DNA of 64,000 nt. It comes from Thunnus maccoyii. Its lineage: Eukaryota; Chordata; Actinopteri; Scombriformes; Scombridae. The notes below the pieces were generated by a model. The model saw only the letters and a program-made list of their open reading frames with translations. It had not been told where the DNA came from and ran no database searches. This document shows, piece by piece, positions 7,720 through 39,200 of the stretch. Numbering within the stretch: position 1 is the stretch's first letter; every line of letters starts with the position of its first letter. Position numbers and translations under genes: made by a program. Location of the stretch: contig NC_056552.1 of the NCBI RefSeq assembly GCF_910596095.1, positions 17,495,111 through 17,559,110 on the forward strand. Reading direction: 5' to 3'.

Positions 7720-9208
7720 GCTTCTTTTTTTTTTTTTTTACTGCTGTGGAATTTTCATCCCACAAATATTTAGCCAGAGGCCTTAAATCTTTTTAGATGA
7801 TGGGTCTGATTTCAACAAAAAAAAAAAAAGTGTTATTTTTCGCAGTAACTCCCTTCAAACCTTCAAAAAAGTTCAAAATGGAGTTCCCTTCATGTTAATT
7901 GTTAGAGCTTTGTCATTGTTTTGTACTGTCATGATATTTGAAAGATGTTACCTATGATGTTGTTGATGTTTTAAAATATATGCTGTACTATCAGTCGCCT
8001 ACTATGAAATTGTCTTATTTGTTGTAATCTCTTCATAAATATGTGGTGTTGCGAACATATATGCCGATCAATGTAAAATCTCACTTAAAAATGTTGTGAT
8101 GTCAGGTAAATGTTTTATAATACATTTTAAGTCCAGCTTCTCTTAAATCCTTTGCATTCATTCAACTTACATTTTGTTGGGAAAAAAAATATTTGTAACT
8201 GTTTTACTGTGTAATTATTAGTAATAACCATCATCTAATTATTAAAAGAGTTTAAAAAAAAACAACAAATTCAGTGGCATTCCAAAATGTTCAAGAAGAG
8301 GAATTAAATTTTTTAATATAAACAAAAAATGTGTCTTTGTTTGTTTCTTCATGTTCAAAACCAACTTGTGTTCATGTTGAACCAGTTTCAGTGTTGGTGC
8401 AGTTTTTCCAATGCATGAAGATCTTAAATGTTAAAGAGAGAGATGCTTCCAAGTAAAGTGAGGTCAAGTCAACACATCATCATGGTAAGAAGCTGTATCA
8501 CATCTGGTGATGACTGACATTTCTTGAACCCATAAAAGACAGAATGCAGAGCGAGTGATAGTATTCCATTAGCAGGCTGCTATTTAAAGGTAAGCTCACT
8601 TATCTGCTACACTTTATTCCCATTAATGACAGTTTTACCTTGAAGTACATTAAGAACCACTTAAATCCAGACGCACAAACAGACGTGTGTATATTTGCTG
8701 TGACATTTGAGAATGCTGAAATGAACAGTTTTCATGCTTAATGCTTTCACGCTTCCTTAAAGTCGACTTGTGAGCTGCTGGAGCTTTGTTGGTTCGACAA
8801 ATGAGAACACGTGTACTGGTAAGGCTTTCTTTTGTGTGTTTGCATTGCAATTCATAGGTACTTTACATTTAAAGATGGACATTTTTTGAAGGATTATACA
8901 GAGAAACTCAAAATGATAAGACTTCTGAGCCAAATATCTAAAAAATGTTCATTATATTCTGTTCCATTTCTGCACTGACTTGACTGTCGTTTTGTTAGTT
9001 TTATACTCTGATCCTGAAGAAACAACATTTGACTGTAACTTTATTTTTTACGGTTGAAATGACAAACTTAAAACTGAAACCTGAGATTAAATTTCTTCAT
9101 CCATTGAAAGGATTTCTCGTGATAAATAAGCAGAACTGAAAGTGAAACAGTCTGTCATAAATATGGATAACTTCCCTACTGTTAGATACCCAACAAAAGC
9201 CAGGAGTG
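7720..9208. other. znf668 3' UTR and spacer
   Basis: AT-rich sequence with poly-T and poly-A runs just after the znf668 stop. No canonical AATAAA was found close to the stop; ATTAAA variants occur near 8,240 and 8,303. No coding region, RNA gene or transposon was recognised. The upstream exon or promoter of the connexin-like sequence could lie near the right end, since CCAG occurs at 9,200-9,203 as a possible acceptor. Confidence 0.5.
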
Positions 9209-9949
9209 ATGATGGCAGCCATAGTAACAGGTCTCATCCCCATCCAGCAGACGGCGGTGGATGCCACCATCATCTACAAGTGCCGCTCCCTGTGGTTCGG
9301 CCTCCTGTGCATCCGCCTGGTGATGCTCTTCCTGGCTGAGCTGCCATTTACAAAACTGGACGCTGACATTGCCTGCGACGGCACCACGCAGGGTCAGCAT
9401 CTGCACCCGAGCCTGTTTTAACAAACACCTCCATAAGGCTATGATGGTGGTCTGGAACTTCACCTATATCTTGGTTATCCTTTCTGTCCTGCTCATGGAG
9501 CTGTTTGCCTCCCACCTGCCCTCCCCAGCCCAGAAGAGGAGCTCTCAGATGAAGATTGATTGGGAGCTGGAGGCTCAGGGGAAAGAGGAGGCTCAGGTTG
9601 TGCGCAAAGACACCAGAGGCAAGACGGTCATATAGATCTCCACAGAGACAGAGGCACTGTGGGCTTCTACCTGTTGAGCATCACTCTGCATATTCTGGTC
9701 GAAACCTGGTGTGTGTATGTTCTGCTTCCTTGGAACCTGCCCGAATTCAATAATTGTCCATACAAATGCTCGACAGACATCTGCTCTAAATTACATGTTT
9801 GTGTTGTGATGGCTGCACCAGAGAAACGCATGTTTATTTATGCTTTGGCTTCCATCTCTGGCATGATTATTGTTTGTTCAGTCCTATGCTCACTACCTTT
9901 GCAACTTTTAAGTACTGACAGTTTTTTTCTCTGCAATATTCTGATGTAG
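9209..9949 (+). pseudogene. Connexin-like gene with two frame breaks
   Basis: Three overlapping frames together give a connexin layout. An N-terminal segment and first membrane helix (SLWFGLLCIRLVML) lead to a first loop beginning ACDGTTQ. After a shift near 9,392 the loop continues as ICTRACF and a second helix (WNFTYILVILSVLLMELF). The cytoplasmic loop then ends in a stop at 9,633-9,635. A second shift at that point restores a third helix (GFYLLSITLHILVETW) and a second loop with cysteines spaced C-x4-C-x5-C (CSTDICSKLHVC). This is followed by APEKRMF, matching the connexin loop-2 hallmark before helix four, and a very short tail. The two shifts together restore frame, but as written no single protein is possible. 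Loop one has eight residues between its first two cysteines rather than the usual six. Connexins form gap-junction channels; the subfamily could not be placed. Assembly error is the alternative. Confidence 0.72.
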
Positions 9950-10344
9950 TCTTAATGGATATGAACACATTTTGATTGCGTAATCCTAATCAGAATTATG
10001 TTAACTGTTGTGTTGGAGGTTCATATATGTTGTTGTGAGATGTATTTTGCTGACACAAAAGGATCTAAGTGTTAGCTGCATGATGGTGTTTCTGAGTCAG
10101 GTTTTTCCTGTGTTTTGGTCAGCGTGAAAACACAAACTGCCACATGGATGGTGTGAAATACACACCCATGTTCACTGTATACTACCTCAGCAGTTTTGAT
10201 ATGCTTAGAAGTGTTTTTCTGGATACAGATTAACATGTTTTAAACTGATATAATTTACATTGTGAGATATTTCAACAGACTTTATTCAGCCAGATAATCA
10301 AACAGCGGTATTTATCTTCTAGTGAGGTGGCGGCTGACAGTTGG
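9950..10344. other. Convergent spacer with 3' UTR of the vWA gene
   Basis: Spacer between the connexin-like sequence (plus) and the Sec23/24-like vWA gene (minus). The minus strand has AATAAA at 10,281-10,286, about 60 nt past that gene's stop codon, which suits a short 3' UTR. Confidence 0.6.
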
Positions 10345-13300
10345 CTAGAGTTTATGTTTATCCTTCAAAGAGATAGACTTCCTGTTGCTGTGCTTCATGG
10401 TGTAGAGCAGCGCTGCACCAGCATCTGTTAGAGACTGGTGGGAGGAGAAATAAAGAAGAAATATCAGACAAGTTAAGTGATAGGGGCAAATTATAAACAG
10501 GTTCTAGTACAGAGTTATATCTAAAGTGAAGGATGTTATGACACAACGTGCATTACCTGTGAGTCTGAAACGACAGATTTTCTCTGGAAAAACAGAAGAG
10601 TGAAATGTTTAAGTGAGGTGATTCTAACCAATGTCAGGCACTAAACCTGATACCAAGAAGACTGAGAAAAACTCACCCGTGTGAAGTTATGTATGTTGTT
10701 GTATATTGGCTCCATGGTTTTAACCCATTCTTGATATGTCTGTTTGTCTTCTGCACTGCGGTTATGCTCTCTGCAAACAAAAACAGACACACTTTATGGA
10801 GTATCTGCCAAGCCTTAGAAACACTGTACATCTAATAAACAGAATGCTCTCTACCAATAACATGAAGTTGATTGTAAGGAACACAAAAGAAAAGAATGCC
10901 AGACAAACAAAACTATCTTTTTAAATGAGCTAAAGGCCTTGGGATCCCTGAACCAGGAAGGAATGTTCATAGATAAAATGTGAATGCTCTCAGTGGCATA
11001 AAAAAAACAAGAGTTCATCAGGTTAAGATGTGTTTCAACATTTTTATGACTATCCTCTACTGAGGAACACATCCAGTTGATCTGATTTTCATTTACCTTT
11101 AAACTCACTTTTTATTTTTGCATCTGGTTTCGCTCTCAGTGTCTGTTTCCAAAGCAGTCATCCGATCTCATATTTCTGCTCATGTTATTTGATGCAAAAC
11201 GTTCTTACACTTATTTTTATTTCACCTGCACAATTACTGGACTTACTGGACATAATCAGTTCTGTAATTTTTCCATCTTTTGGCTTTTTTCTGTGTGTTA
11301 AATATGCACAGACATAGAAAATTAAACCAATTTGTCAGACCACACACTAATGTCAGTCACAGTCCCTCCATCCCTCCTGTTACCCACATCGCTCTCTCGA
11401 TCAGCTTCCTCTGCAGCTCGCCTTCCCTCCTGGCGTCGAGGAAGCGTCCTCTGACAGCCAAAGCAGCGCTGGCCTGTGACGAGTTGAGCTGAATGATGGC
11501 CAGAGACAGAGAGGACAGGACCGTCGAGCTGAGAAGGAGGGCCACACTTTTATCAGAAGAGTGCTTCTTAACATTTACAGCTTCAGCCTTGCCATTATGT
11601 TATTGTGCTATACAACACAGGAGCCATTTTGTAACTGCTCAGACAATGAATCGCATGACCTTCATTCAGCATATGAAGCAGGTAGACTGAGTCGAGAGGT
11701 TCAGCTACTGTGTGACTAAACGTTAGAAAGGAGTAGAAATGTGATTTATATGGTGTGATAATTTCTGCACGATGTGAAGGCTCCTGTATCTCAGCAACAG
11801 CCAGTCTCCTTGGATTTTCAAATATACTTTGCATAAAGGTTTACTGAAAATGGTGTAAAATAATACATCTAATCAGTCCTGAGGGTGAGAACGCCTCGTT
11901 GATGAGAGACGTAAGAGGATAATGACTTGTTTAAGCTTACAAGGAGGACACAAGGATGCAAATAGCTCAGCGCAACAGTGATGTGTGTGTGTGAGGCAAT
12001 CTCAGAGCACCAAAGTAATTATGGAAACAACATCATCACCTGTCATCAGTAACATCTCGTTCTGTAGTGAACACTCTGAGCATTGTCTGTCCGTTCCTCC
12101 GTCTGTACCTGATCTGCAGCTGGATGGACACACGGCTACCAGAAGCCAGCGCTGACACTAAAAAGAAGCCCAGAATTAACTTACGACAGTTTAACTTTGG
12201 AGCAGAGGGGAATTGTAACTAAAATCCAGGAAATATACTGTACGCTAAGGTGATTATGGGAATCAGACAACCCACTGGCTTGTATGAGGAGTCAGTGGTC
12301 AGACAGGAAAAACCACCACTGACTCCTCTAATGCCCCCCACTCACAGCACAGTTACTCCGCTCAAGCAAGTGTTCAGCAACCCCAAATTTGTTTTAAAGG
12401 ACAGGTTCACATATTTTCAACTCTTTCTTAAAAATACAGTCAGGTGTCCATGTGAACATTGAAAGAGGTTTTGCTCACTGTAATCATTCGTCCTGTTCAT
12501 ACTGACCATTAGAAGTTCCATTCTTAATGTGCTTTCAGTATAAGTGATGGACAAAACCCACAGTCCTTGCTTTGTGCAAGATTATATTCAAAAGTTTAAA
12601 GCTTGAGATAAAGCTAAAGCTTGAGTGATTGACTAATTTGGACAACTGAGGCCTCATGTAAACTTTAGATAAACTACTAAATACATTTTTGCACAAAAAG
12701 AGGACTGTGGATTTTATTTTGCAAACATCTCTGTAATAAAATACAGGGAATGTGTAACGTTTTAAATGTTTATTTCTCACACACATCTGTTGTAAAAACA
12801 TGGAACTACTTACATTTTGAGAATTAGCTGTTTTTAACTGTCTTGTCAGGGAAGTGAGGAAGCAAGAATCAAAGGAGAATCCATCTTTTAGCCATGAGTT
12901 TGTAAATGTTAATGACCTTGTTATGATCAACCGGGATGTCCCTCTTAATGGGCAACAGCAGAAGATCTGAGAGCCTTCCTTCTCCACATCTGTTTCTAAG
13001 CTGAGTCTTAATCAACTTCAATGATTGCTCGACAGATGCCGTTGTCACTGGCAGCTTAGATTGCACTGACCCAAACATAATAAAACAATCTAAAGCGGGT
13101 GTGGCTGAACAAACTAGTGAGTAGTACTGTACCAAAATCAACTGAATGGAATAATGTCAACTACAACAACTACAACATGTTTTAAGGGCGCTTTACTTTC
13201 CTAATGGTCAGCCTACATAAAGGATAAAATAATTTCTACCATAATGGCCAGTTTACTCCATGGTAAGGGCATCTCATAGAGCACAGTATCTCATGTTCTT

Positions 13301-16300
13301 CACTGGAAGGCCACTTCAAAATGTTTTTCTCCCCTACAGTGCACCCTATAGGGCACTTCACCATGTTTTTTGTTCATCAAAAGAGCACTCATCATGGCAT
13401 CATGTTCTCTCACATGTGGGGGCACCCTAGAGGGCACTTAATCCCTCTTTTTTCAATGAAAGGGATTGCAACTCTGCACTTCAGTATGTTAGACTTAGGG
13501 GAATCCTAAACTGCACTTTTCCCACTATTTGTTCACTAGAAGGGCACCCATACAGAACCTCTAGCTCACCCCATTACAACGGTATCATAGGGCACTGCAT
13601 TACATCTTGTGGGGGTACTTTACAGGGCACTATCACATTTTCTTCCACTGAAAGGGCCCATGAGGGCACTTCATTCCAGATTGTCACATATAGAGGCCCT
13701 CTTTGGGCATTTCATCCTGATTTACCCATAACTTAGACAGCCATTACAGAACTTTGGCATGTTTTCTCCTTTGTACGGGCACCTTAGAGGGCATTTTATC
13801 ATGTTCACTGTATTTTTTTGTCCTCTGGGCCACCAGCCAATATGTTTGTAACAGCCAGTATGAACAGGAGGACTAATTACAGCAAGCAAAACCTATTTCA
13901 GTGTTCATTGGGCTCCTGGCTAGACTTGAAAAATGGTGAACCCATTGTTTAAATTATTAAGACAAACTTATTGACAGACAAGTAACAGTTCTTTGTTTAC
14001 CTCAACAGTTTCTGTCGCTGTCACTCTTTCTCAGACACTTAACAGGCAGTGGTATGACATCCAGATATACATATTCTTGTTTTACCAGAGATGGCAAAAC
14101 ATGGACTTATGTTGTTGCCCAGCAGCTTTTTTACTGGGCCTATTTTCTTATTTTTCCTCTATCTAGGTCTGTTGTTCTCAGATGTAATGATTCTGTCTCC
14201 TTTCATAATGTTGTCTCTCTTGCAGTGATCTGAGATTAAGACTTTTCTTGGCAGCAACAAAAATCACAATTTTGCAATGTTCATCAAGACCTGGCAGCAC
14301 ATATCACACTACCACCTGTGATATTCATGAGAAAGGCAGAAGAACATCAACTGAAACTACCAAAGTAAACAAACTAACAGTGTCAGTCTGGCAGCGATAA
14401 TGTACCAGTTTTTTCTCACCTTCTGCATCATGTTCACTGGCTCCAAACTGGAAAGTGATCTCTGTTTTTGGGTCCACATTCCCCACCTCTCTGGTCCCTT
14501 TATGTCCTGCCTCCTTCTCTCCTCTCACACGCCTGGAGCAAAAGAGAACATCAGGAAACCAGACCAGTCCATGAAGCATTCAGAAATACTAGTATTTAAC
14601 ATACACATATTAATAAACACATATAAATATTCTCACAGTGCTTTGGGCAGCAGTAATGTGACAGTACAGTGTGTCGCTGTTGTCCTGTTCTCAATAATCT
14701 GCTCAAACTCTGGATGCAACCTACTGGGACTTGCTATTACCACCTAGGGGACAAGAGACAACATATACAGTCAACATGAGAAATGCAAGATTTGATGTGT
14801 TATGTACATAATAAAAATAATGGCACTCTCTTACTGTTCCTCCAGTGCGATCAGCGAGCGTTCCCAGCTCATCCAGCCGGCAGTCTGTTCCCTCTATAGA
14901 CAGCACAGACACTGTCACGCTACAAAAGAAGGATATTTCAGTGTAAACTTTATTACAACACATCTAGACCAGTCTAGTCAAAAAAAGACCACTCCCATCC
15001 TCATTAGTGCTAGTAAGTCTTCGTATTACATGATATATTTAAACACTTGTTTCCATTCTTGATGTTGATTTGCAGATGTGTACTAACCCCTGATTGGCAG
15101 CATATTCTCCCAGCTCCTGGTAGAAGATGGTGGATGAGAGGAGGGTGCGAGCATCGTTATCCTCCACCTCTAGATTCCCTAAGTCTGTGTTTGCCTTCCC
15201 GTCTGTACAGATGATCACCTTCAGGATCAGCAGGGATAGATTGGATTGTTTAGAGCGTAGCAAAATCAAAAAAGCTGAAATATGATTACTAGAACTAAGA
15301 ACTAAGAACCACAGCAAGGTTTTTGCATGTTTTTGCCTAATTACTTCAAAGCATGTATTTTTTACATTACAGGAAACCCCTATCCATTCAATGTGTAGAC
15401 TTATAATGTGACTTAGGCAAAAACAACAGCTGACATGAAGTTGTATCTTTCCCAGGTAAGTTTCAAGTTTAAGCTGAACTAAAATGAAGGGACATTAATG
15501 CAACCCTGGAATGCATGAAAAATACTTTAAAATATCAAATTTGGTAACTGAGAAGAAAAGAAAAATTATAGAAAAACTGTCTACCAGACAAAACAGTGTT
15601 ATTAAATAAAATAAGTACAAGTGACAAACAATGTGTGACATGTGACATGTTAAGTACATACGACCTGTAAATGGGCTGAAACATTCAACTACACTGAACT
15701 GGTCATGCAAAGACTGAGCAGTCAAACCTACCTTGGACCCTGGCTGTCTGGAAGCCATTGCAATGGCCAGGAGAGCAGCTGGACCCAGAGCTGTGGTCCC
15801 ACTTTCAGTTAATCTTTCAAAAAAAGAAAAAAAAAGCAGAAAAGAAACAGAAAAGATACATCTGTCATTTAACATAACATTACTATGATGTGATAAAAGA
15901 CAAAAGTAATCACTGTTTTCCCTCTTACCCCAGAACTTGTCTCTGTAAGAAGTCCTTGGTCTGTGACAGTGGAGGTGGACTGGGGAAACTGGCAGCAGCC
16001 GCTTTCAGATAGTCACTGTCAGTCAGCTCTGCGCCGCTCAGGAAATGTGATGTGAAATTGTCGTATCCATGCATTGTCACCTGATACAAACATCAGGTGA
16101 TGAAGAAAAGCAATAGTAATAACCTGCATGTTGTGTCTATATGAGAAAATTATGGTAATTCTTTATTTAATAGACCCTTTAATTTTATACTAATTTCCTG
16201 AGCAATTTGCGGTCGCATAATGGCAAGTTTTAGGACATTTTACAGAGAGGGTGGTGCAATTTGGTACAAATTATAAGAAAATACAGAAAAAAGTGCAGTT

Positions 16301-19300
16301 GGTTAGTGCCAATTTGTTATTATCTTAGTTCATATGTAGTTGTTAATTTGCAAAAAAACTTAATAAATTAGACTCTTTTTTTAAAAAAAAATCTGACAGA
16401 AAATACTTAGTTTTCAGTGTGTAGTTTTGTGTGTTAAACTACATATTAGCATATAAGGCTGTTTCTTAAAAACTCTATAATGAGCACGTTTCCTATAAAC
16501 CACCAAATTACATAACACTGTCAAAAGAAATGTCCAGTAACTACTGTCCATAAAATTACTGAAACAACCTAATATGTTAATATATCATTTGACATACAAA
16601 ACCACACACTAAAAAACCAAATATTTTCGGACAGTTAAAGAATTGTCAAGAGTCTAATTTATTTACAAGTTTTGCAAATTAACAACTACGTAAGACAAAC
16701 ATAATGAGTGGGTTCTTACCCAGTAAACACCCTCTCTGTAAAATGTCCTAAGAATTACCAGTTAAATACCTGCAAATTACTAAAATTTCCAGGAAATTTG
16801 TATGAAATTAAGGGACCTGTAACATAAAGCGTCACTGAAATTATAAACTGCTGGGTTTTTTTTAGGTTTTTAAGATCCAGCCAATGATGATCATGTACCT
16901 GACAGCTGAAGGTGATGAGTCCCACTCGTATGTCAGGTTGTTGTACACTTAGCCTCTCAACACACTGAAACACGGCTTCCTGGACAAACTGGTTTGAATA
17001 CATTCATTTTTAAAATCGCCAACAGCATCTTGATAGCATCTCTGGACAATTGTTACCATTGTGATACACTATATTGTGCATATACACAAAGCAGAAAAAA
17101 TGTAGATTTTCCAGTGAATTGTACAATGTTGTGTCACTTGGGGAGGAAACTCACCTGTAGACGGGATCTGTGGACAACGTGCTCACCGTCTGACACCTTA
17201 AAACAACAGAGACTAATCACTGTCTGCATGTGAAACATCACAAGCTGTATTTGTGAATGTCCGCAGTCACAAATATCCGTCCATTAGCAAGAGTAATCAC
17301 GTGATTTTACCTGGCAGGTGAGGCTCATGGAGCCTGAGGTGTCGATGCAGAAGAGCAGCAATGCGTCAGCAGCACTCAGGGGTTTTTCATCAGGAGTGAG
17401 CAAAAAGAGGCCATCCTGGTAACCATTTGTGGGACACTGTGGTATACTGGCAGGACTGGTCAAGTTACAGGACTGACAGAAGTAACACACATTAACCTGC
17501 AGTAAAGCATAAAGAGAGAACATTATTTAAATTACCACAAACATCACCGACAGCCACCGACTGAGACATACATCTTACAAACCAGTCTGCAGTCTGAATC
17601 AATCAAACTAATCCCAATCATATTTGTTTCATTAAGTCATGATCAATAATACTGATGCTTGAATGCCTCTAAGAATTCATCATGTTCCCTATTCCCCAGT
17701 AATGATTACAAGGTTATTATTCACATTTGAAATCAATGACTCTTAATCATGTCACCACATAGTAGTATTGTGGTTTTAAAATATACTTTAGGTCAAATAG
17801 AAGATTTAATTACCATGTTGTCATAGCCGGAGTCCAACACAGAGCCGCACTGAGAGCAAGAGGTGGGTTCTCCTTGTATGGGCTGCACTGAAAAATACAC
17901 AAACACCATTATAAGCTAATAAGACTGGAAATCAAACCATTGTAAATAGCCAATAATGAATATTTTATGGTGATGATAAAAGTTTACTGACCTCTTTCAT
18001 CTGAGAGCAATTTTCCCAAACTGACAAGCATCACATTGGGATTTCCTTGCAGAGGCCCCTTATCTGCTGATCATGAGTTGCAAACAACAAGTGAGCATTT
18101 TGTGTTACATTAGTGGTTAGAATAACTATAAAAATTATCTTCCCTTTGAGTCATTTGATAGCAGATAGACATTATGTTCATCTTTACCGGTAGTTGATGT
18201 GGTAAGTGACGGGGCTGAAGGTAATTTCTGAGAGGATGAAGAAGCTGAGTGGGTTGAAGGTAACAGCACCAGATACTCTGGTACTGACCTCATGAATGAA
18301 GGTCTTGCTGGGAGAGGTGGGGCTGTGGACTGAGCTGAGAGCAGAAGAAATTGATCTGTACAAGGCTGCGTCAAATATGGCATTCACTATGTTGTATCAA
18401 GTTAGATTTGAGCACAAAGTGGGACAACTGTCTTGTTGGTTTACCTGATGTCTGGCCTGGCACACTGCTAGTAACAGCTGGCAGGTTCACCTCGCCTCCA
18501 GTTCCTTCTGGGATACTGTATGAATAGTTTGGGTCCCAGGGCTGGGCATTTAAATCCGGCTGATCTTTAGGGAGGTCGTAGGTAAATATCTGATTGTTGG
18601 TGTTGGATGAAGGGAGTGGCTGGCTGTAAGGAGGGGACTGGCTGTTTGCTGCAGGTTTCATGTGTGGTGGAAGAAGAGCTGTATGAAATAGACAGAGGCA
18701 AAGTGTTAAAGGAATAATTCACTCCCAAAATTTTAAACTGTCATTAATTTCTAGAGTGAAATTTCTACTCATGTGCATGTGCATATATCACCACCTTCAA
18801 ACTAAAGGTGTAAAGGGCTGCTTCATCTAATCATCTTTCTCTGGGGTGCACAACGGCTCAGTATCAGTGTCAATACTGACCTTATAAAGGAGCATCTGCC
18901 ATGAAATGACTGAATCACATTAACAGTTTTAGTTTCTTTGTCAATGTCACTGACAATAGAAAAATAAAATTCACTGTTTTCTCTATCAGTTACATCCATT
19001 TTGTCTCTGGCCTCATGTTACCTTACATCAAAATGATCCCTTTGAGTTCCATGTGATGAGGTTTACAGATTTTAAAGTTGGGGGAAAAGGGAATATTGGA
19101 TCAGTACATAGTAGATACTGAGATACTGAGCTAAGTTATCGGGAGAGAAAAAGTTGGATCAGTGCATCCCTAACCTCTGGTGGATTCTAATCATGCAGAT
19201 GTAGATTCGATTTTCGAAGTGCTGCCTCTGCGATTTCCTTCTCTACCCCAAATGAAATGCACCTGGGCCCCGGTCAGACAGAGCGCTTTTTAGCAGCCTG

Positions 19301-21542
19301 GGGTGGCTTTTTGTAATTGTTTTCAATGAGAGTGAAGCTTTTTGCTTGCTGCTTTTGCGTTGCTGAGCACCTCATTTTTTTGCAGGAGCACCCTGAATGC
19401 CTCGAGTTGAGTTCTGTGGTGGTGACCACAACAAGTGGAGGCAGCAATCATGAAGGACAAACCAGACTGGTCTGGGAAAACCTAGTGGTGGCTGTTGCTG
19501 GATACCTGGAGCTATATGACTTTACCAACCGTAGTTACCATGATCTGAACAGAAAACAGCAGGCCTAGAGTGAGTTTACTTCACAGCAAAATAGCGGTTA
19601 GTCTAAGGACAGGTGATTTGGTGGTTGCCTAGCAACAATAAAAAAAAAAAGGTTGTAGCAAGCTGCTCTTTTTTTAAATTGTAGGCTTCGACAAAAAAGG
19701 CACCTCACATTTTGCAACCTGCAAAAAGCGCTCTGTCTGATCAGGGTGATATCTCAAAACCTGGACAAATAAATCAAGAACTATCTGCATGATTAGATAC
19801 CACTAGCAGTAGTGAGAAAATATATTTATATGTAATATGTAATTTGACTGAAGCAACCCTATAAAACCCCAACAAAGTAAAAAACATCCTTCAGTTTTCT
19901 CCCAACAGCACGGGCAACTTAAGAGTCAAACAACATCTCTAAAAGTCAAATTTTTCCCCATGATGTCCTGGCCAAAGCCAAACTTTCCCAGTTAAATAAA
20001 AGCTTTTAAAAAATGTGTATTTGAAGGCCCTGTTAATCTCAGCGGAGTTGGTTTATAGAAGTCAACATTGAATTTTGAGGTGAATTACTCCTTTAAGATA
20101 TCAATTGCATCTATTGTATTTGAGATAATACTACAGTACAGACACTGAGCTTGCGCCATTTATTGTTTCTCAAATTCACAGTACCTGTCTTTCGAGGAGA
20201 TGTTGTCTGTTGAGGAGATGTAATGATGGAGGAAGCTGCCCCTGACTTACGGTGAAATTCAGCATTCTCATAGAAGGGAGTGGACTTCACAAGCGTCCTT
20301 ACTCCCTTACTCTTCTCCAACTGTTCAATGATTTGGAGGGGAAAGGGGGGAGATTTTGATGATTTGACTTCTGCAGAGTTTGTCGTTGGAGGAGGAGGAG
20401 GAGGAGTGCGAGGGCGAGTCCGGTTAACGGGAGGTAGAAGTGCTAAAAGGAATGGAAATAAAAGATTATATACATACAGCTAATTTGTGAACCATTTCTT
20501 GCAAGAGAAGCACAGACAACACAACTGGTGCAGTGATGACCTTTGTGCAGTGAAGAAAATGTGACTGAGGTGGCAGATGGCTTTTACTGAAAGGAATATC
20601 TCCTCTAAGATAGACAGGAGAGGTTGTGTGAGTCATTGATTGCATAATACTTAAATGGTGCTTAACCAACTAGTCACTTGGATACTTTTACACAGGTATG
20701 TATAATCTTTGATGATCAAAATAGAGCTGCAACGATTAGTCAATTCAATGGTCAAATAATCATTTTAGTCATTTTTTAAGTAAAAATTAAGACAATTTCA
20801 GCTTCTTAATGTGAAGATTTAATGCTTTTCTTTGTCATACACAATGGCGAAATGAATATGTTTGGTTTTTGGATTGTTAGTCAGACAAAACAAAACATCT
20901 GAAGGCATCACCCATAATTTTTTACTATTTTCCGACACACATTAACCGTTTGGTTAATCAGAGTGAGAAAATAATTGACAGATTAATCAATAATGAAAAT
21001 AATTGTTAGTTGCAGCCTCAGTTCAAAGCACTTTTTCTTTTATGAATTTGTTTCTTTGATTCACTTTCTTTCCTTCAATGTCTAGTCAGTTTAGTGACTT
21101 CATTTCCCAGAAATCCTTTTGAAATCTGTCAGTAGCAGGTGATACTGTAGCGTCAGTGACAGCAGAGTGAACACTTTGTGCTTCTATAAAGGATTTCTTC
21201 AAACTGGTGAATTAACAAGTTCTTTGAATCTGAGACACTAAAATCTGATGTTTCCAGTTTCTTCATGTTTTTTCTTTTCTGGTGTCAAACTCCACATGAG
21301 CTGCACAGAAAATATCTCTGTATTTGGCTGCTGTTCTGTGGGATTGAGAAAAATCCAACCAAACAGCAAAGCGTCTTTTTTTTAAATGAGTGTCAGTGTT
21401 ATAGGTTTGTTTTTTCTTGTCTTGCTTGGAAATGTTTGAGAGAAATCGCACCTGAGCGTTTAACGACATGGGCAATGGGTCGTTGGCCGTCTTTCTGACT
21501 CAGTGCTGGCGGCACATAAACAAACCCACAAGCAAATTCCAT
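10345..21542 (-). CDS. Zinc-ribbon and vWA protein resembling Sec23/Sec24 trunk (cpRas1-like)
   Basis: Twenty exons joined in frame to 773 residues: 21452-21542, 20185-20442, 18445-18648, 18188-18334, 17992-18063, 17814-17887, 17311-17496, 17155-17196, 16899-16988, 15929-16080, 15732-15813, 15088-15218, 14835-14919, 14637-14743, 14420-14532, 12040-12157, 11388-11546, 10677-10770, 10557-10583, 10345-10434. The start codon follows an acceptor at 21,542-21,560. The first 250 residues are Pro/Ser/Thr-rich. A zinc ribbon follows (CSQC, then CYFCQSC, residues about 268-292), then a vWA domain with a full MIDAS: DTSGS at 334-338, a Thr-bearing SGTTALG segment, and CTDGKAN near 470. A beta-sandwich-like and helical C-terminal part follows. 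This order matches the Sec23/Sec24 trunk and, from memory, fish proteins labelled circularly permutated Ras protein 1. No GTPase motif is visible. Its cellular role is unknown. Confidence 0.82.
12869..13141 (-). pseudogene. hAT transposase C-terminal (dimerisation) remnant
   Basis: The minus-strand translation contains LPVTTASVEQSLKLIKTQLR followed by LSDLLLLPIKRDI. This resembles the hAT dimerisation signature LPVTTASxERSFSxLKxIK...RLxxLxxLxIxxD found in ZMYM1-like fish transposases. Only about 90 codons remain, with no upstream catalytic domain, so it is a relic carried inside the 12.4-13.95 kb foldback element. Confidence 0.7.
13255..13825. repeat. Degenerate tandem array of AGGGCACTTCATCATGTT-type units
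   Basis: Ten or so diverged units carry variants of AAGGGCACCC, AGGGCACTTCA and CATGTTTT at irregular 40-60 bp spacing. Units are too diverged for a clean period. The array is internal to the hAT-related foldback element. Confidence 0.6.
16160..16831. mobile_element. Foldback (MITE-like) element in vWA gene intron
   Basis: Long imperfect inverted arms: GTAGTTGTTAATTTGCAAAA and AATTAGACTCTT on the left reappear reverse-complemented on the right near 16,630-16,690. The outer parts AGGACATTTTACAGAGAGGG (left) and its complement (near 16,732) also match. The ends approximate CAGGTCCCTTAATTT. No coding sequence. Confidence 0.65.
18704..20096. mobile_element. TTAA-flanked foldback element with a nested insertion
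   Basis: The left end TTAAAGGAATAATTCACTCC and the right end, reverse-complemented as TTAAAGGAGTAATTCACCTC, are inverted copies. TTAA sits at both tips. It lies in an intron of the vWA gene and is interrupted by a second element at 19,271-19,746. This end sequence is of a type common in fish MITEs. Confidence 0.7.
19271..19746 (+). mobile_element. Nested terminal-inverted-repeat element with MADF-like ORF remnant
   Basis: TIRs share TCAGACAGAGCGCTTTTT on the left and its complement on the right (about 19,725-19,742). Between them the plus strand encodes ENLVVAVAGYLELYDFTNRS and YHDLNRKQQA, which look like a MADF/Myb-type DNA-binding domain as carried by PIF/Harbinger-type elements, ending in a stop at 19,566-19,568. 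The family assignment is inference. Confidence 0.6.
20728..21018. repeat. Interspersed repeat (GAGCTGCAACGATTAGTC family)
   Basis: Begins GAGCTGCAACGATTAGTCAA and ends with ATTGTTAGTTGCAGCCTC, imperfect inverted termini of a repeat familiar from fish genomes. A second, opposite-orientation copy is at 52,540-52,822. Confidence 0.65.
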
Positions 21543-22002
21543 CGTGATTCTACCTGCCTGTGAGAGAAGGGACATTATTTAACAGAGTGAGATATACTTC
21601 ACTCACTTCTTCAACACATAACACACATAATTACAGTCCAATCCAAAGTAATCAAAGTAATTGCTGTCCAATTTTCTTACATGAGCATGTGGACATTCAG
21701 TTTGTAAAATGTTGACACACCTGGAAAGTGCTTTCATTCTAGAAACATGATCCAGACATTGCAGCCAACATCTATCCTCAATATAATATAAAATGGACAA
21801 TTACCTTTTAAAAATAAGCAGTTGAGACGTACTTACGCAGGCAGATCGCTTTCAATTCTGACAATACAGTACAAGTCTCCCAAGTCTCAGAAATGTTTCA
21901 GTTGCAGTATAACAGCTTGTCATTCATTATTTGTGAGTCAGACACCTTGTCCAACAGGTTTATTTGCTTGTGAGCATTCTCTGTTACCAGTTTAGTAGGT
22001 AT

Positions 22003-22081
<79 letters not shown>
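22003..22081. repeat. (GT)n microsatellite
   Basis: About 38 GT units, nearly perfect, just upstream of the first coding exon of the vWA gene. On the minus strand it reads (CA)n. Confidence 0.97.
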
Positions 22082-22086
<5 letters not shown>

Positions 22087-22189
22087 CTGCAAGGTTGGCA
22101 AGGTTAGTCACAGATTTACTCCCTAACTCTGGTTAAACATTTTCATAAATATAAATAAAATGGGTTGAAGAAAAGCTCGATTGAGAAAC

Positions 22190-23460
22190 AGGGAAGCAGA
22201 TTCAGTTCAAGCAGAACTCTAGGTGGGCGGCCATCTGCCTTGACCGGCTGGGTTGAGAGAGAAAGAAGGAGGGAGAGGGAGAGGGGGGAAAGAGACATAG
22301 AGAAGCATAATAATAACAATAATAATGATAGAAGTATCACTAATAATAATAATAGCAGGCATGGGTGTCAAGCAGAACCACGGGGGTCCCTGCAGCCATG
22401 GTCCATGGAAGCCTGTGATCCATAACTAAGGGGTCCATGACCCTGATCCATAGGAACCTGTGAGGCGAGAAAGCACAAAAACTCATGGGAAGTGCCCTGG
22501 CAGTCTAGGCCTAGCAGCATAACTACGAGCTGGTCCAAGGCAAGCCTGGCCGGCCCTAACTATAAGCTTTATCAAAAAGGAAAATTTTAAGCCTATTCTT
22601 AAACGTAGAGAAGGTGTCTGCCTCCTGGACCCAAACTGGAAGATAGTTCCATAGGAGAGGAGCCCGATAGCTGAAGGCTCTGCCTCCCAGTCTACTTTTA
22701 GAGACTCTAGGATCCACAAGTAAGCCTGCATTCTGGGAGTGCAGTGTTCTAGTGGGGTAATAGGGTACTATGAGCTCTAAGATATGACAGAGCCTGACCA
22801 TTAAGGGCTCTGTAGGTGAGGAAAAGGATTTTAAATTCTATTCTGGATTTTACAGGAAGCCAATGCAGAGAGGCTAAAATGGGAAGAATATTATTTCTTT
22901 TTCTAGTTTTTTTCAGTACATGTGCAGCTGGACCAGTGGATGAGGCTTTAGAGACTTGTTAGAGCAGCCTGATAATAAGGAATTGCAATAAACCAGCCTA
23001 GAAGTAACAAATGCGTGGACTAGTTTTTCTGCATCTTTTTGAGACAGGATGTGCCTGATTTTTGCAATGTTACGTAGGTGAAAAAAGGCAGTCCTGGAAA
23101 TTTGTTTTATGTGGGAGTTGAAGGACATATCCTGATCAAAGATAACTCCTAGATTCCTTATGGTGGTGCTGGAGGACAGGGTAATGCCATCCAGAGTAAC
23201 TATATCATTAGATAATGTGTTTCTAAGGTGTTGTGGGCCAAGTACAATAACTTCAGTTTTGTCTGAGTTTAGTAGCAGAAGATTGCAGGTCATCCAGGTC
23301 TTTATGTCCTTAAGGTATGCTTGGAGTTTGGTTAGCTGACTGGTTTCATCTTGGTTCATTGATAAATATAACTGGGTATCATCTGCATAACAGTGTTTCC
23401 GAATAGTATTACCAAAAGGAAGCATAGATAAGGTGAATAGTATTTGGTCCAAGTTTTCTG
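22190..23460 (-). mobile_element. 5'-truncated L2-like LINE, reverse transcriptase fragment
   Basis: The minus strand from about 23,452 reads an RT with the catalytic motif as YADDTQLYLS, then LLLLNSDKTEVIVLG, LGVIFDQDMSF and RLVYCNSLLSG. It continues in another frame (22,560-22,800) as LHSQNAGLLVDP and FSYRAPLLWNYLPV. These are typical of L2/CR1-clade non-LTR elements in fish. Frame breaks near 22,800-22,930 show it is dead. The 3' tail with degenerate AATAAT repeats extends to about 22,190. It sits between the vWA gene and the PACSIN gene. Confidence 0.85.
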
Positions 23461-24263
23461 AGTACTGAGGGACTTGAGGAAATACATGCCAAAACTTAAC
23501 AGCATGTTTTAAACTTAAGGACTTTTGTTCTTGTTGTTTTTGTTCATTTTCTTTCAGTATTTCTGCAGCTGGTGTAATTAAATGTATCTTTATCTGGTCA
23601 TTATATCTTTATGGAAAATACACATTTTTAATATTTAAAAATGAATTTGAAAATTAAATTTTGGAACATTTCCACATTCTGTATGTGAGTGTTTTTGGTT
23701 GTTTGTCTTAATATATGAAAACTTAAAAAAAATGTGTCAACAAAATGGATTAGATGCAAAACAATCATACTTTTATTTTTTGAAAATACACTCCCTCAGT
23801 CAGAATAACTTCTGTCTACCTCTACATGATAGTTATTAAGTAAACATTAACCTTGTGGATGTGCACACATCATTGTAAACCTGTGTCTGGATAAACCTAA
23901 ACTTGGACAAGATGACAGTAAATAAATATCCTCTCTTGTTCTCTTTTGTTTTGTCTTGACATGCACACATGCAAACAAACACATACATACTCACACATAT
24001 ACACATAAAGCTCTGGCACAAATAGTACATTCTCATCTTTGATAAATTAATTCATATTGCAGACATACTCAAACCAGACGGTTAAAATATTAAGGCCTCA
24101 ACAAAATGTTAACATTTCAAAAAAGGCTGGGAACAAATTATATTTTACATGAAGTCAGAATAAGTGTGACAGTATCTTAGACGTTAAATGATAAATGTTA
24201 TTTTCTGCACATTTAAAAACTAACTCTTTAGGTTTAGGATGTAATATTTTGGACAGTGTGATG

Positions 24264-32918
<8,655 letters not shown>

Positions 32919-35640
32919 TATTGGGAACGTGTCTATTTTAGAGAGGGAAAGATAGCTGTTGGTGTTATACAAGAGAGTGGCTAGACTGGTTAACATGCAT
33001 ATCAATCAACAAGCGACAGGTGACACTGATTATCATGCAACAGGTTGGAACTCTACACTGTAACGTGCAGATACAGTGGGCTGACTTACTCATGAGCAGA
33101 GCCGTTCCCCCTGTACTGTATGGCAGGCAGGTCTAATAGGAAATAACTGGAGACTGAAACCTAGCAGTGTGTGTGTTGCTATGCTTATTGCCAACAACTT
33201 AGACAAGCTGTTATTTACACTGTACAGTGCTTGGATACATCCGAGCCCCCCTACGTGAGTAAGGGGAGTGTCGTTCCAGTGGCAGACTGGAATTCACAGG
33301 GGTGGGATCTGCCAGCAGGATTAGAACAGCTGCTCTGGCATTCTTCCTGTTGCCTTCCCAAAATAAACAGCAGGGAAAGGTCATCTTTCCCTTTACTCTG
33401 ACTAACACAAGGCCTTTTAGAACCCACTGTCTCCCACTCTCTCTCTCTCCTCCTGCCATTTGATTCCAGAGATCATGGCTGCAAAAGCGCAACAGGAGCA
33501 GATTTCTTATCTGGCAAACAAATGAGGGTGTAGGATTCAAAAGGAATAAACTGTCCAGATAGCAGACTTTTTTTTTTTGCACTGCATGTAAAGCAATGTG
33601 GCAGATACATTGAAGGGGAAAGGCAAATTGAACAAAAGGAAGGAGATGCATGCACAAACAGGCAAAGGACGCAGTCACATTCAAACCTATTTCTGTCTGG
33701 GTAACACGTTGACACATTGCTGGCTGAGTAATATGAAAGTGACTAACCACACCTCATCACAAGACTGAGCATGACAGAGAGTCAGACTCATCTAGGACGT
33801 TCTTTCCCTCAGCTAGCTGGTCCTCGTGCCATATTGTGATGTTTTTTGTCATTTTTCTCACTTGTTATGAGCTCCTGCAAGTGGAAACACTGCAGAAAGC
33901 CCCTGAAGACTCATGTTTTTGACATAATCCTAATTCTGTTTTTGTCAGTGCAGAGGCAAGGAAGAGAGGGGAGCGTGAACAGGTTTGAAACAGGACTCAA
34001 TAGCTCACTTTATCACACAGAAGCATTCATATGAAAGTATTTTAATGCTACAAAAACTCCATCCACAAGTCAAAAAAGCAAAAGTGGCAGCAGAGCAGTC
34101 ATGCCTGGGAGAAACCAGCACTTACATTTCTCTCTCTGAATCACCAGTGATTACTCAAGTGACCTGTTACTGTAGCTCAAGGGCTGCTGAGGGTTTCTCT
34201 CCATTTCTCTGTGCGTCTCCCCCTCTCCCAGTGTGCCTTTCCTCCTCTAACACATGCTTCTCTCCCTCTCTCCTCTCTCACTGACCCAATTTTCCTTTGG
34301 CACTTAAAGTTACACACACACGTTGTTGATCTGAAAGTGGGCGTGAGTCACAGAGACAATGCAAGCAAGCAGGGGGGGGAAAAAAGTTGAACAAATCAGA
34401 GCATTTGCATGGTAATCACTCCGCAGCTAATTGGCTTCAGGGCAAATAAACAGAGAGGACGAAACTTACCTTTCTTGCTCTCCTCCCCTTGCAGCTGTGA
34501 TATTCTAGTTCACAGTCATTCCAGGGTGAACTCCTCTTCCTCTTTCTCTTTTCTTATTTTAAACCCATCTCTTGCTCCCTTAACCCACTGGCTTCCTCCC
34601 TATCAGACTGTTTAGCTCTTCTGGCCCCTCTTAGACTATCACCCTCTCACTTACTCTCCAGTCTGCTATTAGAAAAAACAGCTGGAAGAAACCCCCTCCT
34701 TCTCTGTCCCTGCCCGTCCCTCCCTCCGTCTCTCTCAATATGGTGCTAATGAGATGCCGAACCTTCATTTTGACCGTTTGCTGGTCACAGAATCATGTCA
34801 GTGTGGCACAGAGTCATGTGAGCTTATTAGTGAGTGCGTGTGACAGCAGGGAGGAGGGGGGTGTCCCATGAACTGCCTCATTAGCCCCGTGCTCCTGTTT
34901 AACCTGCCTTTCTCTCTGGTCAGGCCTAGAAAGACAGTAGAGTATGCAGCATGTTCTCTAGCACATTGTTTACTTATTCCGGTCTATTCTCTTCTGGATA
35001 TTAGCCAGGAGTTAAAGAAAAGCACCAGTGTCATCCAGAGTTACAGTCCATTTACTGCTGTCTAAATCAGGTTTACACTCCCAAATTGTACATATCGGCT
35101 ATTAATTGTTTATTACATTGCCAAACGTAGCCTGAAATTTACAGCTGCCCATATATTTACCACTTTTGTACATTTTGGAGAAACTCATGCCCAGCAGACT
35201 AACTTTAATAACAATATGGGTACTTGTTTTTTTATGTTCTGTGTTGCAAGCAGTTGGAAGAAATAAATTGGCTACCACTACAATTTTTAAGGGTGAAATT
35301 ATAGCTTATGTGAAACAAGCAAACAAAATTGTAAGTTTATTATTCTACACATGAACTTGTAAATCATTTTAAAATGAGTTTTCAAGTAGTTTTATTGAGG
35401 ATAACAAAATTATAATTGATGGTTTGTTGGTAGTATGACGTATTCTAGTCGCCAGGACTTCTGAATTTTTACAATGGAAATAATTATTGTTGCGTCAACC
35501 TTGACAGTTTGTGGTTATGTGTTATGTACAGTAATGTCTCCCATCTCACAGCGCCAAAAACTAGACTAAGCTGAATGTCACATGGTTTTGAGCATTTAAA
35601 TTTCTCCTGGCAGAAATTTTTTATTTCTTCCACTGAATGC
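32919..35640. promoter_or_regulatory. 5' flank of the PACSIN gene
   Basis: Region upstream of the PACSIN start codon, expected to hold 5' untranslated exon(s) and promoter. Stretches at 33,430-33,460 and 34,190-34,290 are CT-rich. I could not identify a specific first exon or core promoter motif. No coding region was recognised. Confidence 0.35.
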
Positions 35641-35650
35641 AAGGTGACAT

Positions 35651-35890
35651 TAAAGGGCAGGTTCATGTGTTTTATCACATATCATTGGTGGTATCTAGTC
35701 ATGCAGATAGCTTACTTAGGTTTCCAGATATCAGTCTGATTCATTTTTGCCTCCACCCAATACATGAGAGGTAAATGGAATTTCATTTGTGGTGCTCACA
35801 GCACTGGAAAATGACATTTTAAAATTTCAAGAGTGACATTGGTGTCCAGAGTAAGTGCCCCCTTTTGCATTGTATATTCCTCAGACCCCA
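35651..35890. repeat. TTAA-type MITE arm
   Basis: Begins TTAAAGGGCAGGTTCATG and includes GGTATCTAGTCATGCAGATA and GTGGTGCTCACAGCACTGG, matching a fish MITE family by memory. A related block reading in the opposite sense appears inside the 18.7-20.1 kb element (CTGCATGATTAGATACCAC). Only one arm was located here; a Tc1 relic follows directly. Confidence 0.5.
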
Positions 35891-35984
35891 CTGTCAACAT
35901 CTCCCACTGAAAATGCAGATGACAAATTAATAGAGAACCCTGATTAAATGAGTAAACAAACACATGCCTCCACATAGGACAGGA

Positions 35985-36270
35985 AGGGCACTGAATGGTT
36001 TCATGAGCATGAAAATTATGTGAATCATATGATATGGTCTTCACAGTCACCAGATCTCACCCAAATTCAACACCTATTTGCGATTTTAGACAAATATGTT
36101 GGACAGTGCTCTATGCCACTTTCATCAAAACACCAAATGAGGGAATATCTTTTGGAAGAGCGGTGTTCATCCCTCATTCAGAGACTAGGAATATCTATTC
36201 CAAGGAGCACTGAAGCTGTTTTGGCAGCTTGTGGTAGGCAAACACTGGTTTCTCCTTTAATTTGTCATCC
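35985..36270 (+). pseudogene. Tc1/mariner transposase C-terminal relic
   Basis: The plus strand reads NHMIWSSQSPDLTQIQHLF, then LLEERCSSLIQRL and IPRSTEAVLAACG. This follows the Tc1 pattern WPSQSPDLNPIEHLW...EEW..IPxxxxxxLIxSMPRRxxAVLxAxGG, with substitutions. Only the third catalytic-residue region and C-terminus remain. Inactive. Confidence 0.8.
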
Positions 36271-36299
36271 AATTCTAGTTTCTACCAATGGAACAAGAA

Positions 36300-39200
36300 T
36301 TACAAGAAGTAACTGGAAATTAGAGAAACTTTGACAAGGTACACTGTAATGAAAAGTGTTTTTATCTATAGAAGAAAAATGGCAGCTAGTGGCTTCATCT
36401 CCACAGAGAAAAACACATCTTGACATCCGGAGTTCTTTCTAACTGTAAGCAGACCTCAGCAAGAGAAATACATGAAGGGGGCAACATGGCACAAACTTTA
36501 AAAAGCCACCAGTATTATATTTACAATTTTCTACCATGAACCTTGTACTGGCCACCATGCTAGCAAACAATCTCATTCATCCTCTTCCAAGCTTTTTTCA
36601 TTGTTTTTGGTGCCTTACAGGCGTCTTTGGGTTTGCCGCATGAATGCAGCCGCTGCTTGCTTTGAATTAAGCCATCTCATCTTCTACCTCCCAGTGAGCT
36701 CTACTCTTTTGTCCTATTAGCTCACCGAGCCTGATGGGAAAATAATCCTGGACCTGAAAACAATGTTGTGTTCAACCACCGCAGGGCTGAGACGAGCTGC
36801 TGCCAAATGGCTCAATTCAAACACAGCACTTTAAATTGGATCATTATGTGAATCTGTCAGAGGGAATCCAAGAAGAAATGAGAATCAAGACAGGGCCATA
36901 GTTTATTTTAGCATTTATTTCAACACCTTAGTTGTACCTCTATCATATTGTTTATCAGTATATACTGTATTTTATTTAAAACAAAACTTTATATATATAT
37001 ATATTTATATATATACCTTTTATCTCTGCATACTTATGCTCATACTGTATGTAGTCATATTCATTATGCATTTCACTAGACCTAAAATACTTTTTAAACC
37101 ATAGTATGTAATGCTTTCTACACTACCGCTCTGTCCTTTCACTTCTCAGAATAGCGTCCATCACGAGATAGCATTGAGGCAACTCAGCATGAGAATACAG
37201 AGTCATAATTTTATACTCACATAGAGAGAATATGCATTAACTAACGTGTGTCAGCTTCACTGGGGTCACCACAGGGCGAGCAGTATAGAAAGCATTTACA
37301 GTAAACTGGAAATGAAACATAAACAAACAAAGCTTTAAAGAATTTGTCCACACTATTTGGAAGACGGAGATTCTTAAAAAGGTTTACATACTTAATGTTA
37401 TCTTTATTATGCTTTATGTTATCGTTGTCATCATCATCAGTACATATAGATCTATAAACGATGGGTTTTTGCCTTACAGTAGAATTCACTGCAGGGAATG
37501 GCTAACTGGCATGTTAAAAAAATCCAGGGCACTCACGTTCACCTCTATGTAACATATACAGTATTTACCTTAAGTTAATCAGTCTGAAAATACCTTTTGT
37601 AAAGTGGGACAGAGTATTTCCTTTCAAGGGTTAATGTGTGGAACAGGGAAACATTAGGATTGTCAACTGGTGAGAAGAAAAACAATGTTTTCTGACCATT
37701 ATAAACAAGTTTTTGGAAAAGGCATTAGAAAGAGAAGGGTGTAGGTCAGGGAAAGCATTTGGCCACCAAGGCAGGCTGACGAACACACACGCACAAAATC
37801 AGACACACAGACTCACAAAGGCTGAAGGTTGAGGGAGTCAGGCAAACAGAGAAGCAGTAAAAAGCCCTTTTTGATCACGGCACCTGCTGTGTGAGAGAGA
37901 GCGGTCAACATTATGGCATCAAAAGAGGATGGATTCATCCCCTGACCTGTGCTATGGCCATGAATGAACACCGATAAAGTCTAAGAAAAGATGATTTGCA
38001 GTTAGAAATGAAATGCAAACCCTTCTCAGTTCCTCTCCAAAATTCCCTCTGCTTTCTATATAATAATCAGGAAAATAATAAAAGGTCATTTCACAACAAT
38101 ATTTTCTCAATATTTGTATATCCTCATTATGCACAACTTGAATTCAACGATTATAAATACCCCGACCAGTTTGAAATGAATGATTGCGATCAGCACTTAG
38201 TACAAAACAAATGGTTCTACTAATAGTGAATCCCGTTTAACATGTAAGATATATTTAGTGCTCGCAAAGTACATACATACAAAGCTTATTGGGGCATCCT
38301 TTGGGGGAATATGGCAAATATATAAAAGAATACTATTTTTCTCTATCATTTTCTTCTATCATCATTTACAAATAAAACATTTTCTCTCATATTCTGACTT
38401 TGGCTCCAGCACTCACAGCCATTAGATACTCTGATCTGCTTAAAGCTACAAACTGATGTCAGGATGTGGTCCTTATGTTTTGTTTTCGCTAGAGTTTCTG
38501 GCTCAGCCACAATCAGTAACATTTTATGGGGGTTTACCCCTTAAGCAGCAACTTTTCAACTTCTCAGTGAACTCAGACTGAAGTTTTCTCAGTGCTGCTA
38601 TGCAGCAGATGGTGTGAGAATCCATCTGTCAGTGTGTGTGTGAGAATATGAGTGTCTATGTGTGTGTATGTGTTTGTCTTTTACAGCACAAAACGGTGTG
38701 TTAATTAAATGCCTGTCCATCAAAAGTTTCAAAGTATATTTTCAGTTGAACAGCGTCATTTTCATGATATTCATCGTGCCCTTTCTCGACCAGTTGTCAT
38801 TTCACAAATTTCAACATTTCTCTACATTTATAACAAATTTTCAAGACAACAATTTTCCCACATATCCAGCCCTTAGTCTAAGTTCATCACAACCTGTTGA
38901 TGTCCACTGTTCTTCTCTTCCACATCTTCTGTTATTGTTCATCTTTGTCAATTTGTTTCTCTCCCTTTCTTTCATCTTTGAATCACCCCATCACTCTCTC
39001 AGTCTGTGTCTCGGGGAGAAGTAGTGACATGCAAAGGAGAGGCGAGTCGCCTGGGGAGAGAAGGAGGGCAAATCAAAGAATAAGAATGGGCAGAAATTAA
39101 AATAAAGATGGAGAAAACTAAATAGGATTGATAAAACACAGGTTAATAAGGAGAAAGAGAAAGAGATGGAGGGAAGATGAGATAACTTATCAAACTCTAT

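Follow-up and report, generated by a model that had tools for sequence, protein, structure and literature searches.

The window, a stretch of 64,000 nucleotides of Thunnus maccoyii DNA, carries on its minus strand a gene whose coding region extends from an ATG at position 21542 to a TAG ending at 10345. All 20 exon seeds of this gene were located in the window, and their joining gave a single open frame of 781 residues (10345..21542). The 19 introns are all of the GT-AG type with agreeing phases, and the sole in-frame stop is the terminal one: exons 1-19 are free of stops in the coding frame, while exon 20 holds only the terminal stop. Stops are found in both alternative frames in 13 of the 20 exons, and in at least one of them in 19. 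Exon boundaries were placed by hand; the less certain ones are the acceptor of exon 5, which shows a tandem CAGCAG, and the junctions of exons 16/17 and 17/18, where the pair of sites that keeps the phase was chosen. The chain of 20 exons proposed in the preliminary description was thus recovered, but not its length of 773 residues, a difference to which the choice of hand-set boundaries may have led. Altogether, the locus has the appearance of an intact gene of the fish.

Upstream of this gene and in the same orientation, a gene encoding an F-BAR domain (FCH, 1.7e-13) and an SH3 domain (SH3_1, 1.3e-10) was detected at about 24280-32680 of the minus strand; it presumably resembles PACSIN. The interval between both genes contains a retroelement remnant on the minus strand at 23141-23443 (RVT_1, E 2.9e-4, 21 bits for a cut-off of 29.6). 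Inspection by eye revealed a long (TG)n microsatellite at about 22008-22081, which precedes the first coding exon by some 470 bases, and a run of imperfect 'agggcac' copies in intron 15 (13270-13830). A connexin-like coding stretch is present on the plus strand at 9160-9640 (Pfam Connexin, 2.7e-5, 24.5 bits for a cut-off of 31.3). This match was obtained after joining two overlapping frames, and the stretch is therefore either interrupted or crosses an unseen intron.

The preliminary description had recognised a Sec23/Sec24-like trunk with a vWA fold and proposed a comparison with HMM profiles. When the 781-residue protein was compared to Pfam, Sec23_trunk was recovered as the best match (E 6.7e-8, 32.9 bits, cut-off 27), with its best stretch at residues 453-550, together with VWA_2 (E 5.1e-6) and VWA (E 4.8e-5), both at residues 340-399. 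These matches delineate a VWA/Sec23-trunk domain encoded by exons 7-13 (14835..17496, minus strand). A Sec23/Sec24-like beta-sandwich follows at residues 593-656 in exons 15-16 (12040..14532, minus strand); the corresponding match to Sec23_BS (E 8.7e-7, 29.9 bits) remains under the cut-off of 33.5. Three other Pfam matches to the protein were weak and under their cut-offs. At the sequence level, the matches to the Sec23 and VWA families exceed what is expected by chance, in agreement with the fold assignment made earlier. Since trunk and beta-sandwich occur in exons 7-16 in the order known from Sec23, it is unlikely that these exons are split over two genes.

The segment preceding the trunk domain, encoded by exons 6-7 (17311..17887, minus strand), contains a putative zinc ribbon followed by the first VWA strand with the DTSGS motif at residues 345-349. 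Two cysteine pairs (C279/C282 and C297/C300) are spaced as in a zinc ribbon, with C303 as an extra candidate; D345 follows C300 after 45 residues and C303 after 42. No zinc-ribbon family scored above its cut-off in Pfam, neither with the whole protein nor with the isolated cysteine piece, for which the best matches, also below their cut-offs, were C1_1 (0.011) and Zn_ribbon_LapB (0.033). The zinc ribbon placed directly before the vWA fold in the preliminary description is putative, with four suitably spaced cysteines and no Pfam assignment. NCBIfam holds no matching family for the part from the zinc ribbon to the C-terminus.

Both ends of the protein flank this core without a recognisable family. 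The N-terminal part (exons 1-5, 17992..21542, minus strand) matched no Pfam family, and these exons may come from a separate gene. Residues 1-265 comprise 16% proline and 14% serine, and the part displays the SH3-ligand-like motifs RTRPRTP, RTPPPPP and PPLPAR, of a kind that is common in proline-rich stretches generally. The location of the SH3-encoding neighbour beside a gene with such motifs may be a coincidence. The C-terminal part of about 123-125 residues (exons 17-20, 10345..11546, minus strand), which is presumed to be helical, matched no Pfam family above cut-off.

The residues of a metal-ion-dependent adhesion site (MIDAS) are distributed over three motifs: DTSGS, SGTTALG at residues 451-457 (exon 11, 15732..15813, minus strand) and CTDGKAN at 478-484 (exon 12, 15088..15218, minus strand). 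In an alignment with three canonical VWA domains of bacterial proteins, D345, S347, S349, T454 and D480 coincide with the MIDAS residues, T453 taking the place of T454 as the MIDAS threonine if the alignment is shifted by one. The spatial nearness of these residues was judged from the alignment. The motif set DxSxS, Thr and Asp is complete in the fish domain, as had been claimed initially. The three bacterial proteins used as yardsticks are relatives from Eremiobacterota MAGs, taken out of 353 pattern matches in genome contigs; they are VWA proteins with hydrophobic flanks and share with the fish protein the stretch CIDTSGSM that was used for the search. Pattern searches gave five matches in viral contigs, none of which was a relative, and no match in plasmids.

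A profile built from the fish domain and the three bacterial ones retrieved 28 distinct sequences of solved structures at E up to 0.001. As three of the four profile rows are bacterial, this result is better evidence for the fold than for the fish sequence; only two of the rows cover DTSGS. BatB-type bacterial VWA proteins came first among the 28, which also included anthrax toxin receptor 2. From the aligned positions, the fish VWA domain is predicted to bind Mg2+ or a similar ion via D345, S347, S349, T454 and D480.

The same positions were inspected in Sec23 and Sec24 chains of solved structure, for which two Sec23 sequences (of eight distinct ones listed) and two Sec24 sequences (of 14) were aligned with the fish domain. 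The first MIDAS aspartate is kept in all four chains and the full DxSxS in one of them (yeast Sec24). All four have other residues in place of the last aspartate and of the threonine, whichever of the two candidate columns is taken for the latter. The earlier statement that Sec23/Sec24 trunks lack a working MIDAS therefore holds for the chains compared, and Sec23 and Sec24 are probably the side on which the MIDAS was lost. Searching the PDB with phmmer using the whole protein gave five sequences at E up to 1, namely one SEC23 (0.43) and four dehydrogenase entries with no relationship to the protein (0.53); with the trunk part, a SEC23 was the single sequence listed, with a non-significant E of 0.15. 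Neither the Sec23 helical nor the gelsolin family was matched in Pfam by the fish protein. The helical and gelsolin domains of Sec23 and Sec24 need more than about 125 residues. As the roughly 125 residues after the beta-sandwich are too few, a C-terminus of this type is considered absent.

The gene probably belongs to the family known by the name circularly permutated Ras protein 1. The G1 pattern [AG]x4GK[ST] and the G4 pattern [NT]KxD are both absent from the 781 residues, which confirms the preliminary description in that no Walker A or NKxD-like motif is visible in any exon. Looser patterns occur in the protein, with three DxxG, one of which is the DTSG of the MIDAS, and two SA[KL]. No Ras family was found among the Pfam matches of the 781-residue protein, nor at E up to 10 in the three minus frames of 10301-24000 when these were read through. 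The latter revealed Sec23_BS (4e-4), a weak Sec23_trunk (0.2), the RVT_1 remnant and SelP_N at the level of chance, while no match came from one of the frames. In the control frames of 24001-37000, FCH (1.7e-13), SH3_1 (1.3e-10) and a weak DUF were obtained in two frames and the third was empty. The sensitivity of the read-through scan is limited: the exon of the VWA domain went undetected, so that a GTPase exon of divergent sequence might likewise be overlooked. By motifs, Pfam and read-through frames alike, the protein shows no circularly permuted Ras domain (order G3-G4-G5-G1-G2) and resembles in this the relatives that lack the cpRAS domain.

The discrepancy between the name and the missing GTPase had first been presented as a surprise. 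Relatives in which the half with zinc finger and VWA domain is present and the cpRAS GTPase is missing were, however, described in 2008 (Elias and Novotny, 2008; PMC2430557). In the cpRAS-VWA proteins proper, the cpRAS domain is located N-terminal of the VWA half (PMC2430557). The main text of that study mentions neither the MIDAS nor fish or vertebrates (PMC2430557). The fish gene carries a Ras-type name because it was named after the cpRAS-VWA proteins, and the misleading name is thereby cleared up as that of a family member without detectable Ras domain.

Considering these data together, the protein is likely a relative of the cpRAS-VWA proteins without GTPase which acts as an intracellular, metal-dependent scaffold, and neither as a COPII coat subunit nor as a GTPase. 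An acidic residue contributed by a partner protein would complete the VWA metal site, in the manner reported for integrin and suggested for midasin and ArnB. SH3 proteins could be recruited by the proline-rich N-terminal part, and the C-terminal part could serve as a surface for docking, comparable to the ArnB helical bundle. The protein, assumed to be located inside the cell, would then serve as an assembly scaffold without the need for a nucleotide. With it, the metal site lost by Sec23/Sec24 would become testable in an animal protein.

It might be argued that the gene encodes a full cpRAS-VWA protein of which the GTPase exons were missed. Such a reading would explain the annotation name and fits the N-terminal position of the cpRAS domain in the family; an acceptor-like sequence directly before the ATG, moreover, suggests a further exon upstream, and the limited sensitivity of the read-through scan has to be taken into account. 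However, the SH3 exon of the neighbouring gene at about 24280-24390 leaves only some 2.7 kb of upstream space, no Ras family was detected in the three minus frames of 10301-24000, and the protein is devoid of G1 and G4 motifs, so that missed GTPase exons appear highly improbable. A divergent COPII coat protein, that is a Sec23 or Sec24 paralog acting at ER exit sites, is suggested by the ranking of Sec23_trunk and Sec23_BS as first and second Pfam matches and by SEC23 being the lone PDB sequence found by phmmer with the trunk part, at a non-significant E of 0.15. Against it speak the C-terminus, where about 125 residues follow the beta-sandwich and neither the helical nor the gelsolin family of Sec23 is matched, and the MIDAS, which is complete, unlike in the four Sec23/Sec24 chains compared; a coat paralog is accordingly regarded as improbable.

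The MIDAS residues could also be retained but idle, the protein acting through its tails alone. The open-licence literature searched yielded no functional study of the family. In the single sequence at hand, though, the five residues have all been kept, while Sec23 and Sec24 demonstrate that the fold can lose them, and an idle site is thus considered unlikely. The likely scaffold reading also has a bolder extension: fish may keep the ancestral metal-dependent core of Sec23/Sec24 as a free ArnB-like signalling scaffold, in which an SH3-binding tail replaces the GTPase of the relatives. This extension is doubtful and should be taken as speculation; if true, it would show what role the coat proteins had before they became coats.

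In other animals, a gene cpas1 of eel is tabulated among those responsive to infection (PMC5560681), and Cpras1 appears in a pathway table of an abalone study (PMC11764893). By description, rather than by alignment, the closest known proteins are the GTPase-less relatives of Dictyostelium, Entamoeba dispar, Lottia, Capitella, Strongylocentrotus and ciliates (Elias and Novotny, 2008; PMC2430557), which share with the fish protein the VWA/Sec23 trunk, the lack of cpRAS and, possibly, the zinc-finger cysteines before the trunk. The cpRAS-VWA proteins, such as DdiCPRas1 and others, have in common with it a C-terminal half made of zinc finger (putative in the fish) and VWA/Sec23 trunk, but differ by their circularly permuted Ras GTPase, none of which was found in the fish. 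Instead of a member of the GTPase-less group, the fish gene may be an ortholog of the cpRAS-VWA proteins from which the GTPase has been lost. With the COPII proteins Sec23 and Sec24, it shares the order of zinc ribbon (putative in the fish), trunk and beta-sandwich; it lacks a gelsolin match, and its MIDAS is complete where that of the four aligned chains is not.

The best parallel is offered by archaeal ArnB and vWA2, which display a VWA domain with an intact MIDAS, a beta-sandwich and a helical bundle; the site of ArnB is occupied by a sodium ion. An intact MIDAS in ArnB, vWA2 and one bacterial relative is reported in a 2019 paper (PMC6509490). The authors suggest that a partner glutamate may complete the metal site, in analogy to integrin-laminin and midasin (PMC6509490). 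The preliminary description had considered an intact MIDAS as unexpected in a Sec23-like architecture; given this precedent, its novelty for the architecture was rejected. ArnB, vWA2 (ArnE) and the Catenulispora relative resemble the fish protein, according to their description, by a MIDAS-intact VWA domain, a beta-sandwich and a short C-terminal part. They differ in that the zinc finger of the ArnA-ArnB pair sits on the partner ArnA, and they are not known to have a proline-rich N-terminal part. The architecture with a complete MIDAS is thus already known from archaea and bacteria, as are GTPase-less relatives of the cpRAS-VWA proteins from other eukaryotes.
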